DNA of 64,000 nt from Bacillus sp. NP157 (GTDB lineage Bacteria; Pseudomonadota; Gammaproteobacteria; Xanthomonadales; Rhodanobacteraceae). This document shows positions 52,819-60,855 of this stretch, in pieces. The DNA is taken from positions 2,976,001 to 3,040,000 of the forward strand of contig CP076546.1 in the NCBI GenBank assembly GCA_018889975.1. The letters run 5' to 3'. The position numbers and the translations under genes are program-made. Numbering within the stretch: position 1 is the stretch's first letter; each line of letters begins with the position of its first letter. Under the pieces are notes generated by a model. That model saw nothing but the letters and a program-made list of their open reading frames with translations, was not told the origin of the DNA and ran no database searches.

Positions 52819-53447
52819 ATCGCCCGGCGCGCGAGGATCAGGTGCAGGCCGAACAGGGTGAAGATCGCCCCGGCGCCGCCGTCGATCCAGCGGCTGGCGC
52901 GGACGTAGCCGCGGCGCATGGCCGGGAGGGCGAAGATCGCCGCGACCACCCCGAACCAGAGGAAGGTCTCGGCGGTGACCATGGCCCACAGGCCCCAGCG
53001 GGCGCCGGCCTGGATGCCCTCGCCGACGAAGGCCGAGAAGATCGACGCGAAGTAGATCGCCGCCTTCGGGTTGGCCAGGTTGGTCAACAGGCCGCGCAGC
53101 AGGGCCCGGCCGGGACTGGAGCCACGTACGTCGACAGTCGGCACCGCGGCATCCGGCCGCGCCTTCCACGAAGCCCGCAGCATCTGGATGCCCATCCAGC
53201 AGAGGTAGGCGCCGCCGGCGATGGCGATGCCACGCTCCAGCCAGGCCAGGCGGTGCAACAGTAGCTGCAGGCCAAGCAGGGCCAGCGCCGCCCAGACCGC
53301 CACGCCCATGGCGATGCCGACCACCCCGGCGATGGCCTCGCGGCGCGAGCGGCTGGCGGCCAGCTGGCTGACGAAGAAGAAATCCGGGCCAGGCGTGACC
53401 AGGGCCACGAGCTGGACGATCGCAAGGGTAAGGAAGGTCGAAGCCAT
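52815..53447 (-). CDS. LysE family exporter
   Basis: A 210-residue inner-membrane exporter of the LysE/RhtB family with six helices. VALVTPGPDFFFVSQLAASRSRREAIAGVVGIAMGVAVW is the family N-terminus, and LLTNLANPKAAIYFASIFSAF the conserved mid-protein motif. Exports amino acids or homoserine lactone-type molecules. The start at 53447 is fixed by the first helix; it has no Shine-Dalgarno but a TATACT lies six bases before the ATG. Its stop overlaps that of marR. Confidence 0.92.
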   Translation of the reverse strand: MASTFLTLAIVQLVALVTPGPDFFFVSQLAASRSRREAIAGVVGIAMGVAVWAALALLGLQLLLHRLAWLERGIAIAGGAYLCWMGIQMLRASWKARPDAAVPTVDVRGSSPGRALLRGLLTNLANPKAAIYFASIFSAFVGEGIQAGARWGLWAMVTAETFLWFGVVAAIFALPAMRRGYVRASRWIDGGAGAIFTLFGLHLILARRAI

Positions 53448-53453
53448 GGCGGG

Positions 53454-53459
53454 AGTATA
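53454..53459 (-). promoter_or_regulatory. possible -10 box TATACT for a leaderless lysE mRNA
   Basis: TATACT on the minus strand, six bases before the ATG at 53447. A transcript started at the usual distance would begin at or very near the A of the start codon. No -35 of good quality was found. No ribosome site precedes the gene, which agrees with leaderless translation. Confidence 0.4.
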
Positions 53460-53638
53460 GCGACCACGCCGTTCCTGGCGGCCTCGACGCCCCATCCCGG
53501 CGCCCCCACTTCCCACCCGCACCCCCTCTTTCACGCTTTTTTCGCACCGCGCCTTGCCCCCCACGGCCACCTCCCGTAACCTCGCGTTTTTTAAAGCGGT
53601 CACGGGGCTACCCCCGGCCTCCCATGGGGTAAGTCACG

Positions 53639-54943
53639 ATGCTGGGTATGCTCGGCCACGTTCTGTTTGGCCTGTTCGGTTTGGCGGTGCTCGTCGGTAT
53701 CGCTTTCTGCTTCTCCAATAACAAGCGGTCGGTGGACTGGAAGCTGGTCGCCACCGGCATCAGCCTGCAGATCGTCTTCGCCGCCATCGTGCTGAAGGTG
53801 CCGCTGGGCCGCGACGTCTTCGACGCCATCGCGACCGGCTTCGTGCACCTGCTCGACTACGTGGAAGTGGGCTCGCGCTTCATCTTCGGCTCGCTGCTGG
53901 ACACCGATAAGTTCGGCGTGATCTTCGCCGTGAAGGTGCTGCCGACCATCATCTTCTTCGCCGCCCTCACCGGCGTGCTGTACCACATCGGCGTCATGCA
54001 GCAGATCGTCAAGGGCATGGCCTGGGTGATCACCAAGGTGATGCGCGTGTCCGGTGCGGAAACCACCAGCGTCTGCGCCAGCGTGTTCATCGGCCAGACC
54101 GAAGCGCCGCTGACGATCAAGCCGTACATCGAACGGATGACCCAGGCCGAGCTGATGACCGTCATGATCGGCGGCATGGCCCACATCGCCGGCTCGGTGA
54201 TGGCCGCCTACGTGGCGATGCTCGGCGGCGACGACCCGGCCTCGCGCCTGTTCTACGCAAAGCACCTGCTCACCGCCAGCGTCATGGCCGCCCCGGCGAC
54301 GATGGTGCTGGCCAAGATCCTGGTCCCCGAAACACAGGAACCGCTGACCCGCGGAACCGTGAAGATCGAAGTCGAGAAGACCACGGCCAACGTGATCGAC
54401 GCGGCCGCCACGGGCGCCGGCGACGGCCTCAAGCTGGCGCTGAACGTCGGTGCCATGCTGCTCGCCTTCATCGCCCTGATCGCGCTGGTGAACGGCCCGG
54501 TGCAGTGGGTCGGTACGATCGGCGGCGACCACAGCATCAATGCGTGGCTGACCGCTAACGCCGGCCATCCGGTGGTGTTCAGCCTTGAAACCATCTTCGG
54601 CTGGGTGCTGGCCCCGGTCGCCTGGCTGATCGGCGTGCCCTGGCACGACGCCAGCCTGGTCGGCAGCTTCATCGGCGAAAAGGTCGTCATCAACGAGTTC
54701 GTCGCCTACGCCGACCTCGCCAAACACCTGCCCGACCTGTTGCCGGAAAGCCGCCTGATCGCGACCTACGCGCTGTGCGGCTTCGCCAACTTCTCGTCCA
54801 TCGCCATCCAGATCGGCGGCATCGGTGGCCTCGCCCCGAACCGTCGTGCCGACCTCGCCCGCCTGGGCCTGCGTGCGGTGCTCGGCGGTTCCATCGCGAC
54901 CTTCATGACGGCGACCATCGCCGGCGTGCTCGAGCGATTCTGA
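53639..54943 (+). CDS. concentrative nucleoside transporter (NupC/CNT family)
   Basis: A 434-residue inner-membrane nucleoside importer of the CNT family with about ten helices. GQTEAPLTIKPYIERMTQAELMTVMIGGMAHIAGSVMAAYV (about 155-195) is the signature region with the substrate-binding Gln/Glu, and FIGEKVVINEFVAYADL and YALCGFANFSSIAIQIGGIGGL are the second half's hallmark. Imports nucleosides with protons or sodium. The PfkB kinase gene starts three bases after its stop, so the pair likely takes up and phosphorylates a nucleoside. Confidence 0.93.
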   Translation: MLGMLGHVLFGLFGLAVLVGIAFCFSNNKRSVDWKLVATGISLQIVFAAIVLKVPLGRDVFDAIATGFVHLLDYVEVGSRFIFGSLLDTDKFGVIFAVKVLPTIIFFAALTGVLYHIGVMQQIVKGMAWVITKVMRVSGAETTSVCASVFIGQTEAPLTIKPYIERMTQAELMTVMIGGMAHIAGSVMAAYVAMLGGDDPASRLFYAKHLLTASVMAAPATMVLAKILVPETQEPLTRGTVKIEVEKTTANVIDAAATGAGDGLKLALNVGAMLLAFIALIALVNGPVQWVGTIGGDHSINAWLTANAGHPVVFSLETIFGWVLAPVAWLIGVPWHDASLVGSFIGEKVVINEFVAYADLAKHLPDLLPESRLIATYALCGFANFSSIAIQIGGIGGLAPNRRADLARLGLRAVLGGSIATFMTATIAGVLERF

Positions 54944-54946
54944 TCG

Positions 54947-55801
54947 ATGGCCGATATCCGCCTGCTGGTGGTGGGCGGGTATAGCGAGGAAGAGCGCTGG
55001 CAGACGCCGCGCCTTCCGCGCACCGGCGAGCCGTCCTACGCCGACGCCTTCGAGCGCCGGCCGGGCGGCAAGGCGTTCCACCAGGCCGTCGCCGCATCGC
55101 ATGCCGGCGTCGGCACGGGCCTGATCGCCGCGATCGGCGACGACGTCATCGACCCCTCGGGACTGCCGCCGCTGGTCGACGCCCGCTGGCAGGTCACCAC
55201 CGGGGTCCGCACGGGGCGCACCGCGCTGATCGTGGACCCGGCCGGGCAGACCCTCTCCGCGTTGTCTTCCGGCGCCAACGACCGGCTGGACATGGCCTTC
55301 GTCGCCGCGCAGACCGATCTGTTCGAAGGCGCGTCGGTGCTGCTGGCGTCGACCGAAGCCAACATCGACACCATCGCTGCGACGCTGGACCTCGCCGGCG
55401 CGCATCGCCTCCTGCGCATCCTCGATCCGGGTCCGCTACCGCCGGGCCTGTCCGTGCGCGAGTTCGCCAGCACCGACGTGTTGTTGCTCAGCCTGCACGA
55501 GTTCGCCCGCTGCTGTGCGCGCTTCCTGTCGATCGAGATCACCGCCAGCGCGGTCACCGCGATGGACGACACCACGATCAACGCCCTCGCCCGCCGCCTG
55601 TGCGCGGGCACGGTGGTGGTGTCGCTGGACAAGAGCTGCCTGGTCTCGCACGGCAGCGATCGCCACGGCGACCACGCCGACGTCTATCGCGTGCCGATGT
55701 GCGGCCACGGCGATGCATTCAAGGGAACGCTCGCCGCGCGACTGACCCAGGAAGGCTGCTTCCGCGACGCCCTCCAGGCCGCCTGCACCGCAGTGGTGTA
55801 G
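54947..55801 (+). CDS. PfkB family kinase, C-terminus ended by a REP unit
   Basis: A 284-residue ribokinase-like kinase. The N-terminal RRPGGKAFHQAVAASHAGVGTGLIAAIGDD (about 37-66) is the sugar-binding GGK region, and the catalytic motif is MCGHGDAFKGTLAARLT (GxGD, near 251-267). The usual closing helix and strand after DALQAACTAVV are missing: the frame stops at the TAG inside the REP unit 55797-55819. It is probably a nucleoside kinase acting with the upstream transporter. Whether the shortened protein is active cannot be seen. Confidence 0.82.
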   Translation: MADIRLLVVGGYSEEERWQTPRLPRTGEPSYADAFERRPGGKAFHQAVAASHAGVGTGLIAAIGDDVIDPSGLPPLVDARWQVTTGVRTGRTALIVDPAGQTLSALSSGANDRLDMAFVAAQTDLFEGASVLLASTEANIDTIAATLDLAGAHRLLRILDPGPLPPGLSVREFASTDVLLLSLHEFARCCARFLSIEITASAVTAMDDTTINALARRLCAGTVVVSLDKSCLVSHGSDRHGDHADVYRVPMCGHGDAFKGTLAARLTQEGCFRDALQAACTAVV

Positions 55802-55819
55802 GAGCGCGCCTGCGCGCGA
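55797..55819 (+). repeat. REP unit containing the kinase stop codon
   Basis: Consensus unit; its TAG (55799-55801) is the stop of the PfkB gene. It forms a pair with the reverse unit at 55938-55960. Confidence 0.92.
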
Positions 55820-55929
55820 TTGGGTGCACCGATTCCTCGCACGCTAGATTGGGCGCATCATTCTTAGCTCGCAAGATTGGGCGCATCATTCTTAGCTCGC
55901 GCGATCGACCGCACCGTTTCCTCGCTCCG
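55818..55929. repeat. four ~28 bp imperfect direct repeats between two REP units
   Basis: Two perfect 27 bp copies start at 55846 and 55874 (28 bp period; each AGATTGGGCGCATCATTCTT followed by AGCTCGC). A diverged copy precedes them (from 55818, GATTGGGTGCACCGATTCC) and another follows (from 55902, CGATCGACCGCACCGTTTCC). The outer two resemble each other more than the inner two. No spacers, so not a CRISPR array. Confidence 0.75.
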
Positions 55930-55937
55930 TTGGCTTT

Positions 55938-55960
55938 TCGCGCGCAGGCGCGCTCCTACG
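55938..55960 (-). repeat. REP unit, reverse, containing the cyclotransferase stop
   Basis: Reverse unit with one changed end base. On the minus strand its TAG (55958-55956) is the stop of the glutaminyl cyclotransferase gene. Confidence 0.9.
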
Positions 55961-56726
55961 GGTGCAGGCGGATTTCGTAGAGGGTTTTCCAGCGTTTGCC
56001 GGTGACGAAGAGCCGATCGCCCTTCGCGTCGTAGGCGATGCCGTTGAGCACGGCGTCGATGTCCGCCTGGTTGGGCTGTTCCTTCGCAAGCGCCGTGAGG
56101 TCGAGCCAGCCGATGACGTGGCCGCTCTTCGGATCGATCTGCGCGATGCGGTTGGTCTGCCACACGTTGGCGTAGATCACGCCCTTGACCCATTCCAGCT
56201 CGTTGATCTTCTGCAGCGGCACGCCGCCGGCGGTGACGCTGATGCTGCCGGTCTGCCGGAACGTGTCGGGGTCGAGCACGCGGATCACCGGGGTGCCGTC
56301 GCTCATGTACAGGTGGGTGTCGTCGCGGGTCAGTGCCCAGCCTTCGCCGCTGTAGCGGATACCTGCTTTCAGCTCGAAGGTGTTGCGGTCGTAGAGGAAG
56401 CCGACGCCTTGCTGCCAGGTGAGCTGGAGCAGGTAGGGCCCGCTGAAGATGATGCCTTCGCCGAAGAAGCCCTGGGGTACGTCGCGTTGCTGCACCACTT
56501 CGCCGGTTTCCAGGCGCACCTTGCGCACGCCGGCACCTTCGTACTCGCCGGTGCTCTCGTAGAGGAACCCGTTGTCGTAGACGAGGCCTTCGGTGAAGGC
56601 TTTCGGGTCGTGCGGGTAGCGGTGGACGACGGTATAGGCGTGGGTGGGCGCGTCTTTGGCGGCCGCGGGCATCGCGGCGGTGGCCAACGCGAGGGCGGCG
56701 GCGACCAGGGAGGCAGGCTGTGGCAT
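55956..56726 (-). CDS. glutaminyl-peptide cyclotransferase (glutamine cyclotransferase)
   Basis: A 256-residue exported beta-propeller enzyme that cyclises N-terminal glutamine to pyroglutamate. Signal peptide about 1-23 (AAA-KD). AFTEGLVYDNGFLYESTGEYEGAGVRKV (about 42-69) with the Glu of the active site, FFGEGIIF, GWALTRDDTHLYMSDG and INELEWVKGVIYANVW (about 172-187) are the five-bladed propeller motifs. The last residues RLHP end at a REP unit. The family C-terminus is often longer by only a few residues, so little or nothing may be lost. Confidence 0.92.
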   Translation of the reverse strand: MPQPASLVAAALALATAAMPAAAKDAPTHAYTVVHRYPHDPKAFTEGLVYDNGFLYESTGEYEGAGVRKVRLETGEVVQQRDVPQGFFGEGIIFSGPYLLQLTWQQGVGFLYDRNTFELKAGIRYSGEGWALTRDDTHLYMSDGTPVIRVLDPDTFRQTGSISVTAGGVPLQKINELEWVKGVIYANVWQTNRIAQIDPKSGHVIGWLDLTALAKEQPNQADIDAVLNGIAYDAKGDRLFVTGKRWKTLYEIRLHP

Positions 56727-56754
56727 CGGTCGTTCGAAGGTCAGACTACGCGGA

Positions 56755-56797
56755 CTTGCGCGCGACCGAGGTTACCGTAACCTCGATCGCGCGCAAG
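56755..56797. repeat. 43 bp near-perfect palindrome
   Basis: Two 21-base arms (56755-56775 and 56777-56797) around a single C, with one mismatch. The outer part CTTGCGCGCGA resembles a REP end and the inner part is CGAGGTTAC / GTAACCTCG. It lies between the aminopeptidase and the cyclotransferase genes on the minus strand, 29 bases before the latter's start. It may terminate pepN-like transcription or be an operator. Confidence 0.7.
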
Positions 56798-56856
56798 GTG
56801 CGCTTTTTGCGGTGTGGCTGGGGGCGTGCATGGGGCACGCTCTCGCCATGGGGCAG

Positions 56857-56879
56857 TCGCGCGCGGGCGCGCTCCTACA
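56857..56879 (-). repeat. REP unit, reverse, next to the aminopeptidase stop
   Basis: One reverse unit with a single changed base, one base beyond the TAA (56881-56883) of the M1 aminopeptidase gene. Confidence 0.88.
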
Positions 56880-56880
56880 A

Positions 56881-59517
<2,637 letters not shown>

Positions 59518-59616
59518 GGGGAACCCCTGGTGGTGGACCCAGCGATGGTCCGCCGCCGATGGGGTGGTTAGATAGCGCCGGAAGTCATGCTCGCAGGATC
59601 CTGCGAGTCGACCGGC

Positions 59617-60855
59617 TCACCAGAACTTCCACCAGCGCGGCCGGTCCAGCTTGCGCAGGGCCTGCAGGTGGCCGCGCGAGGCGGCCTTGCGGAACCAGGC
59701 CCGGGCGAAGGCCGTGTTGGCCGGCACCCCGTCGCCACGCTCGTGCATGCGGCCGAGGTCGTACTGCGCCTCCGGCACGCCCTGGTTGGCCGATAGGCGC
59801 AGCAGCCGCAGCACTTCCTCGACATTGCGCGGCACACCGCGGCCACCGTCGATCATCCGGGCCAGCGCGTGCTGGGCGTTGGCATGGCCACGCTCGGCGG
59901 CCAGCGCCAGCCAGCGGACCGCGTCGGGGTCGTTACGCGCGATGCCATCGCCGGTCGCCAGGCGCATGCCCAGCTGGTACTGCCCGGCGGCGTCCTGCGG
60001 GCCGGTCGCGACCTGTCGCGGCGTGGCCTCGGGCAGGGCTTCTTCGGCGTCCAGCTCCGCCAGGCGCTGCTTTGCCTCACTGTCGCCCTGTGCCGCCGCC
60101 TGGCCGAACCAGTGGCGAGCCTGCTCGATGTCGCCGGGGAGGCCGCTGGCCTCCAGGTACATCTTGCCCAGCGCGAATTGGGCGATGCTGTTGCCCAGTT
60201 CGGCGGCGCGACGGTAATGCCGTGCACCCATGACCGGGTCGCGGGCCACGCCCACGCCGTCGCAATACATGTGCGCGATGCTGCACAGGGCATCGGCGTA
60301 GCCGCGGCTGGCCGGTTCGCCGCGCTCGACCGCCTTCATGTAGAAGGCGAAGGCGAGCTCGGCGTCACGCGGCACGCCGCGCCCGAAATAATGCGAGACA
60401 CCCAGGTTCACGCAGGCCTGGGCGTGGCCCTGGTCGGCGGCGAGGCCCCACCAGTGCAGCGCTTCGCGGCGGTCGGCGGTGACCCCATGGCCACGCGCAT
60501 AGAGGGTGCCCAGCGAGCACTGCGCTTCGGCATGCCCGGCCTCGGCGGCACGCCGGTACCAGGCGGCGGCTTCGACGCTGTCGCGTGCCACGCCGCGGCC
60601 TTCGGCGTACTGCGTGCCGAGGCGGAACTGGCCATCGAGGTGGCCCTGGTCGGCGGCACGGCGTAGCCAGTGCGCCGAACGTGCCGGGTCTTCCGCCACG
60701 TGGTCGCCGGTGAAATACATGACGCCGACGCGAAACTGCGCCTGCGCGTCACCGAGCTGCGCATCTTTTTCGAGTCGCCCGAATCTCTGGAGGGCGTCCA
60801 TCTCGGCGACGAATCGATGATCGCCGAGCACACCGCCCCTGGTCCCTTCCGACAT
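59617..60855 (-). CDS. Sel1-repeat protein
   Basis: A 412-residue protein made of about ten Sel1-like repeats of about 36 residues (A-x2-LG-x2-Y-x2-G-x-GV-x2-D pattern: FRLGTQYAEGRGVARD, CSLGTLYARGHGVTAD, VNLGVSHYFGRGVPRD, YQLGMRLATGDGIARN, YDLGRMHERGDGVPAN). One stretch at about 265-285 (AELDAEEALPEATPRQVAT) breaks the series as an acidic linker. No signal peptide, so cytoplasmic. It should act as a protein-binding scaffold. The start at 60855 is the second Met of the frame. Confidence 0.9.
   Translation of the reverse strand: MSEGTRGGVLGDHRFVAEMDALQRFGRLEKDAQLGDAQAQFRVGVMYFTGDHVAEDPARSAHWLRRAADQGHLDGQFRLGTQYAEGRGVARDSVEAAAWYRRAAEAGHAEAQCSLGTLYARGHGVTADRREALHWWGLAADQGHAQACVNLGVSHYFGRGVPRDAELAFAFYMKAVERGEPASRGYADALCSIAHMYCDGVGVARDPVMGARHYRRAAELGNSIAQFALGKMYLEASGLPGDIEQARHWFGQAAAQGDSEAKQRLAELDAEEALPEATPRQVATGPQDAAGQYQLGMRLATGDGIARNDPDAVRWLALAAERGHANAQHALARMIDGGRGVPRNVEEVLRLLRLSANQGVPEAQYDLGRMHERGDGVPANTAFARAWFRKAASRGHLQALRKLDRPRWWKFW

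Follow-up and report, generated by a model that had tools for sequence, protein, structure and literature searches.

Results

Two convergent genes end on a pair of inverted REP units

The analysed stretch of DNA, a 64-kb window, carries a convergent gene pair whose stop codons both lie within short repeated elements. On the plus strand, a PfkB-family (ribokinase-like) sugar kinase of 284 aa occupies positions 54947–55801 and, according to the ORF list, ends with the TAG at 55799–55801. Its reading frame matches Pfam PF00294 (E 4.5e-13) and scores below the cut-offs of the NCBIfam ribokinase models. Facing it on the minus strand is a glutaminyl cyclotransferase gene (Glu_cyclase_2, 256 aa, 55956–56726; Pfam PF05096, E 3.4e-92), for which the same list places the TAG stop at 55958–55956. 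The two stops are separated by a gap of 154 bp bearing two inverted copies of GTAGGAGCGCGCCTGCGCGCGA at its edges. The plus-strand copy, a GTAG-headed REP unit at 55798–55819, includes the kinase stop as the TAG of its head, and the minus-strand copy at 55938–55959 includes the stop of the cyclotransferase in the same way. The first-pass annotation had read both convergent stops as the TAG of REP heads, and we confirmed this at both positions. The head sequence it gave for the units, TGTAGGAGCG, holds for the kinase-side unit but not for the minus unit, which begins with CGTAGGAGCG, its head being preceded by C (CGTAGG) and not by T.

The unstranded spacer separating the units (55820–55937) is predicted to fold together with both of them into a single long hairpin (166 nt, −88.4 kcal/mol, z −6.5). 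Inspection by eye revealed a direct repeat of about 27 bp inside the spacer (55846–55905), formed by two copies of AGATTGGGCGCATCATTCTTAGCTCGC lying nearly head to tail. A neighbouring REP unit is found on the minus strand at 56857–56878, with its TAG in frame 6 nt past the TAA of an M1 aminopeptidase gene (d = −6, where d is the offset from the T of the head to the first base of the nearest same-strand stop). The end of that gene (56857–56883) reads TAA TTG TAG, with the TAA in use and the REP TAG as a spare stop.

The units belong to an abundant GTAG-headed REP family

Each unit consists of an unpaired GTAG plus GAGCGCGCCTGCGCGCGA and a GC-rich stem; the stem filter is satisfied by 14 of the 15 units in the window, the fifteenth (36366) having a stem mismatch. 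For the head TGTAGGAGCG, 0.06 occurrences would be expected in the window and 14 are present; the 22-nt unit has 623 exact copies in the 4.9-Mb genome (301 and 322 on the two strands), with none for the reversed-pattern control. The family has the features of GTAG-tagged REPs, namely GTAG beside a short palindrome, a high genome-wide copy number and a location mostly outside genes near gene 3′ ends: among 301 GTAG units in the six-species sample described below, 127 lie at d = −60 to −5, 35 at d = 0 and 1 at d = 1 to 60. A REP-associated tyrosine transposase (RAYT) is the probable agent that spreads these short hairpin elements. The genome contains one Y1_Tnp (RAYT-like) gene above the cut-off, a 151-aa ORF, and the arrangement expected for RAYT-mobilised REPs, in which the cognate RAYT gene lies between inverted copies of its own REP family, is present at the sequence level. 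The flanking units of this gene (G000:C1 ~4521799–4522059, complement strand; G000 is the genome of the window in the congener set) are identical to each other, and its own stop is the TAG of the flanking REP. Luteibacter congeners swap GTAG-headed and GTGG-headed families, and many genomes hold hundreds of one and few of the other: GTAG is prevalent in G000, G010, G002, G017 and G016, and GTGG in G005, G003, G009, G022 and others.

Neither protein of the pair was truncated

The first-pass annotation had proposed that the kinase lacks the last helix and strand usual for PfkB proteins, and had taken this to point to REP insertion cutting off and re-ending genes. A scan of species genomes with the kinase returned Luteibacter in 10 of 10 loci (62–82% identity), which assigns the window to a genome of this genus. 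Kinase orthologues were found in 18 of the 22 congeners, giving together with this genome 19 sequences of 279–286 residues counted from the match start; no close orthologue was found in the remaining four (G006, which is 80% complete, G014, G015 and G021). More distant PfkB proteins from outside the genus (11 loci) comprise 313–325 residues, and the last 30–40 of these are absent from all 19 Luteibacter kinases, which is the observation that favours truncation. However, the 18 congeneric orthologues are equally short, with or without a REP; therefore, the C-terminus is indeed missing when compared with longer PfkB relatives, but it is missing genus-wide. The genus family represents a short PfkB form, in which CGxGDxFKG replaces the usual ribokinase-type AAGD region.

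The kinase stop coincides with a REP head in only 4 of the 19 sequences (G000, G002 with a degenerate unit, G001 and G010), and none of the other 15 extends further. As these 15 kinases without a REP-tag stop are just as short, REP insertion did not cut off the kinase. Past the conserved AAC, four residues remain in this genome; of the 15 species without a REP-tag stop, 6 have the same number and the other 9 have one to three. The four REP-ended kinases have 4, 4, 5 and 6 residues there, so that REP stops accompany equal or slightly longer ends. In the nearest relatives, G018 and G004, the kinase ends two residues earlier; thus, the end here may have shifted by +2.

For the cyclotransferase, nine orthologues were readable at the end of the gene; a G012 match in another frame was excluded, and 8 loci end before the gene does. 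The protein ends four residues past YE(I/V) here and in all 9 orthologues, none of which has a REP-supplied stop and none of which extends further. The idea that a REP had cut off this protein is thus contradicted as well. In G007, which has no REP at this place, 8 bp separate the stops of the two genes, and the ends of both proteins are those seen here. The G010 cyclotransferase gene ends with TGA AAG CTG TAG, the TAG being a spare in-frame stop just downstream. In orthologues without REP stops both genes end at the same place, which refutes truncation at this locus and is the very outcome that the first-pass annotation had named as contradicting its proposal.

GTAG heads coincide with stop codons far more often than by chance

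The coincidence of REP heads with stops was counted in six contiguous 400-kb blocks, one from each of six Luteibacter species. A REP unit had to combine GT[AG]GGAGC with an exact stem of 5 bp or longer, a definition that misses degenerate units such as that of G002 at the kinase locus; genes were called with a codon-usage script, whose calls were checked only by eye, against called genes in the window at 53000–60000. The results clearly showed a spike exactly at the stop: the 35 of 301 GTAG units at d = 0 stand against 3.5 per position at d = −30 to −5 (Poisson p 4e-23) and against a local peak density of 5.7 per position at d = −19 to −10 (p 1e-16), a tenfold and a sixfold excess, respectively. 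The highest count at any other single position was 8. Next to the stop, 10 units were counted at d = −9 to −5, 57 at d = −19 to −10 and 22 at d = −29 to −20. Offsets of −1 to −4 are almost impossible (one case), because the TGTAG bases leave no room for a stop, and the spike therefore appears more isolated than it really is.

Each genome alone gave the same picture (11/60, 6/36, 4/58, 2/17, 9/83 and 3/47 at d = 0; p 3e-8 to 9e-3), and in a separate set of 30 loci from the same genome 8 of 49 GTAG units were at d = 0. Ten named 20-kb Luteibacter loci, a small set, ran contrary to the rule, with none of their 17 GTAG units at d = 0. The G000 block has 11 d = 0 units, and a frame-scan check recovered 10 of them. 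The free space behind genes accounts for little of the spike, since about 0.75–0.82 of gene ends are open at the stop and 0.60–0.66 still at 17 nt. The coincidence of GTAG units with stops, taken as a class, is thus more than chance, and REP-supplied stops are frequent in the Luteibacter stretches examined, with about one GTAG unit in nine acting in this way.

None of 199 GTGG units was at d = 0, a zero that is forced because TGG is not a stop codon; a pile-up of GTGG units beside stops was not seen either (7/199 at d = −9 to −5 and none at d = −4 to 60). In the two genomes that carry GTAG as well as GTGG heads, d = 0 was found for 5 of 64 GTAG units vs. 0 of 196 GTGG units. Exact family copies make up 28 of 30 d = 0 units and 176 of 207 other units (four genomes), so that the former are as intact as the rest, and the idea that they are old relics was not supported. 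GTAG heads located 5–60 nt downstream of stops showed no in-frame bias (41, 38 and 48 in the three frames).

A convergent gene pair in which intact units supply both stops is rare: among the 35 d = 0 units, only the two described here have an inverted d = 0 partner. A second convergent gap was noticed by eye in G018, where a short REP pair, one unit of which is degenerate, provides both gene stops with its two ends; in G004 the same gap leaves 3 bp between the stops (G018_9 / G004_11; block G018 L091, facing G004 L111).

REP-ended genes gain residues more often than they lose them

Among the 35 REP-ended genes, 27 had an orthologue in another block free of REP at d = −9 to 60; of the rest, 6 had no orthologue in the blocks and 2 no orthologue free of REP in that interval. 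Relative to the closest such orthologue, 14 of the 27 proteins were unchanged in length, 9 were longer (+1, +2, +2, +3, +3, +4, +4, +12 and +39 residues, the last in a repetitive lysine-alanine tail) and 4 were shorter (−1, −2, −3 and −10). As a background, 250 random genes without REPs gave 203 unchanged, 24 shorter and 23 longer ends. Any change of the end was thus more frequent in REP-ended genes (13/27 vs. 47/250, Fisher p 0.001), and so was lengthening (9/27 vs. 23/250, p 0.001), whereas no shortening above background was found (4/27 vs. 24/250, p 0.5). The first-pass view of these repeats as a small driver of C-terminal change is therefore supported as to the frequency of changed ends but needs correction as to direction: REPs re-end genes, and residues are gained more often than lost.

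Where the stop of an orthologue has no REP, it is TGA in 43, TAA in 22 and TAG in 14 cases. The 18% share of TAG is close to the genus background (13% in all other genes), so TAG usually arrived with the unit.

The same gene ends are used repeatedly

A REP-ended orthologue was present for 12 of 29 REP-ended genes against 1.6 expected, with a maximum of 10 in 2000 permutations. In 4 of 6 pairs of REP-ended orthologues the stops lie at different residues, thus indicating repeated arrival at the same gene ends. Such reuse is compatible with biased arrival as well as with a demand for REPs at these places. Orthologous 3′ ends are also shared by REPs of any kind 2.4 times more often than expected (214 of 1946 pairs vs. 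89.6), despite differing REP families. REP-ended genes are enriched in convergent orientation (23/35 vs. about 601/1856 gene ends, with 601 convergent and 1254 codirectional; p 8e-5). In d = 0 units, C has a frequency of 0.69–0.71 at the two positions before TGTAG, and in d < 0 units C is again the commonest base there (0.39–0.57).

Discussion

Taken together, the data make it likely that an inverted GTAG REP pair supplied both stops of the convergent genes, while the proteins kept the length seen in relatives. The 154-bp pair would have entered the short convergent gap as a mobile unit and filled it, with its two outward heads becoming the stops of both genes and replacing the old ones, which in relatives are TGA, TAA or TAG. 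The GTAG head would be fixed by the transposase, its stop function being a by-product; as the head contains TAG, it doubles as a portable stop when arriving in frame. Selection would remove arrivals that leave a gene without a nearby stop, so that in-gene arrivals would be lost unless the head gives a stop near the old one, and in this way the stop function would decide which arrivals persist. We tried to map the junctions by eye in 12 orthologue pairs, but the relatives have diverged too far for the insert ends to be located.

Random arrival combined with rescue by the reading frame predicts that changes of −1, −2 and −3 residues should be about as common as no change at all. One case of each was seen against 14 of 27 unchanged ends, so rescue by itself does not account for the data. 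Either the loss of a few residues does more harm than thought, or arrival is biased to the stop. Tentatively, and aware that the balance of probability is somewhat against us, we propose that GTAG may be a portable stop that makes the last codon a safe landing place, thus giving exact and repeated takeovers across species, occasionally on both sides of the same convergent gap, which GTGG cannot do. Within this proposal, either the RAYT directs the units to stops, or the stop function selects the arrivals that persist.

It is also conceivable, though we consider it doubtful, that the RAYT machinery as such prefers a gene-end target, e.g., a C|T or GTRR-like site overlapping the stop, from which unchanged ends would follow. 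The excess of unchanged ends over random arrival with rescue argues for this, as do the many REP-ended orthologues and their different end residues, and the C before TGTAG in d = 0 units fits the C|T cleavage by TnpAREP described in the relevant passages of PMC8266576. However, C is also the commonest base in d < 0 units, codon choice biases the bases before TGTAG in d = 0 units, GTGG units do not pile up beside stops, and the shared occupancy of 3′ ends may instead mean that certain gene ends tolerate or need a REP.

We regard as unlikely a gradual course of events in which the units landed downstream and later deletions took the old stop with the spacer, leaving the REP TAG as the stop. Spare in-frame TAGs just past stops, as in the M1 aminopeptidase gene and in the G010 cyclotransferase gene, look like possible starting points for such erosion, and the 9 longer ends of 27 would agree with it. 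Yet units downstream of stops show no in-frame excess, d = 0 units are as intact as others, and an exact zero change is not its natural outcome.

That the unit arrived beside an already existing TAG stop, which then came to resemble a part of the REP, seems very improbable. A TAG without a REP is indeed found at the same place in G018_9/G004_11 and in some kinase relatives, but TAG is hardly enriched in orthologues without a REP, and GTAG also heads units that are nowhere near stops. A pre-existing TAG as a target is thus not supported by the stop usage of orthologues. Finally, truncation by REP insertion is scarcely credible given the unchanged cyclotransferase end, the equally short kinases of the 15 congeners lacking a REP-tag stop and the background-level shortening, although shorter proteins were counted for 4 of the 27 REP-ended genes in the comparison with their closest orthologues free of a REP at the stop.

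Di Nocera et al. 2013 (PMC3733652) state, in the passages concerned, that GTAG REPs often provide TAG stops, so the phenomenon is already known; among the titles listed in literature searches, no other paper on REP-supplied stops was found. The elements in those passages resemble ours in being short palindromes with an unpaired GTAG at one end, located mostly at gene 3′ ends and often within 20 bp of convergent genes. The same passages name no Luteibacter family, nor do they set the number of stop-supplying units against a positional expectation, contrast GTAG with GTGG heads or compare protein ends in the stop-supplying cases. What is new relative to the known GTAG stops is the sharp spike at d = 0 and the mostly unchanged protein ends. 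The observation made at this locus is real, ordinary for the genus and of a known kind, and it is not a truncation.

The REPtrons of Stenotrophomonas, Pseudomonas and E. coli, as presented in the parts of PMC2817692, PMC8266576 and PMC3390384 that deal with them, likewise have GTAG next to a hairpin, inverted pairs, and a RAYT gene flanked by inverted REPs, with REPs very close to the RAYT stop. According to the same parts, TnpAREP of the E. coli and Stenotrophomonas systems requires GTAG for its activity; in the pertinent sections of PMC8266576, RAYTs are described as single-strand transposases with a requirement for GTAG and a cleavage site at C|T next to the REP. In contrast to these REPtrons, the RAYT gene found here takes its own stop from the TAG of the flanking REP, and several congeners have GTGG heads. 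The E. coli REPs located at most 15 nt from stops, as described in the relevant section of PMC12306157, also place a hairpin right behind the stop codon, and it is proposed there that they stall ribosomes and lower translation. The Luteibacter unit, known here from its sequence, differs in that it contains the stop, the hairpin beginning within a few nt.

The exactness of the stop takeover is the part worth following up, and the natural GTAG/GTGG contrast within one genus makes targeting and survival testable against each other. For annotation, TAG stops inside REPs are to be treated as genuine ends of genes, and REP stops can make species differ in a few C-terminal residues. In Luteibacter, a tiny mobile repeat can clearly be seen, and counted, to coexist with genes at little cost, its transposase tag doubling as a stop. 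If the portable-stop proposal is true, a single base of the transposase's recognition tag would set how a selfish repeat can lie against genes.
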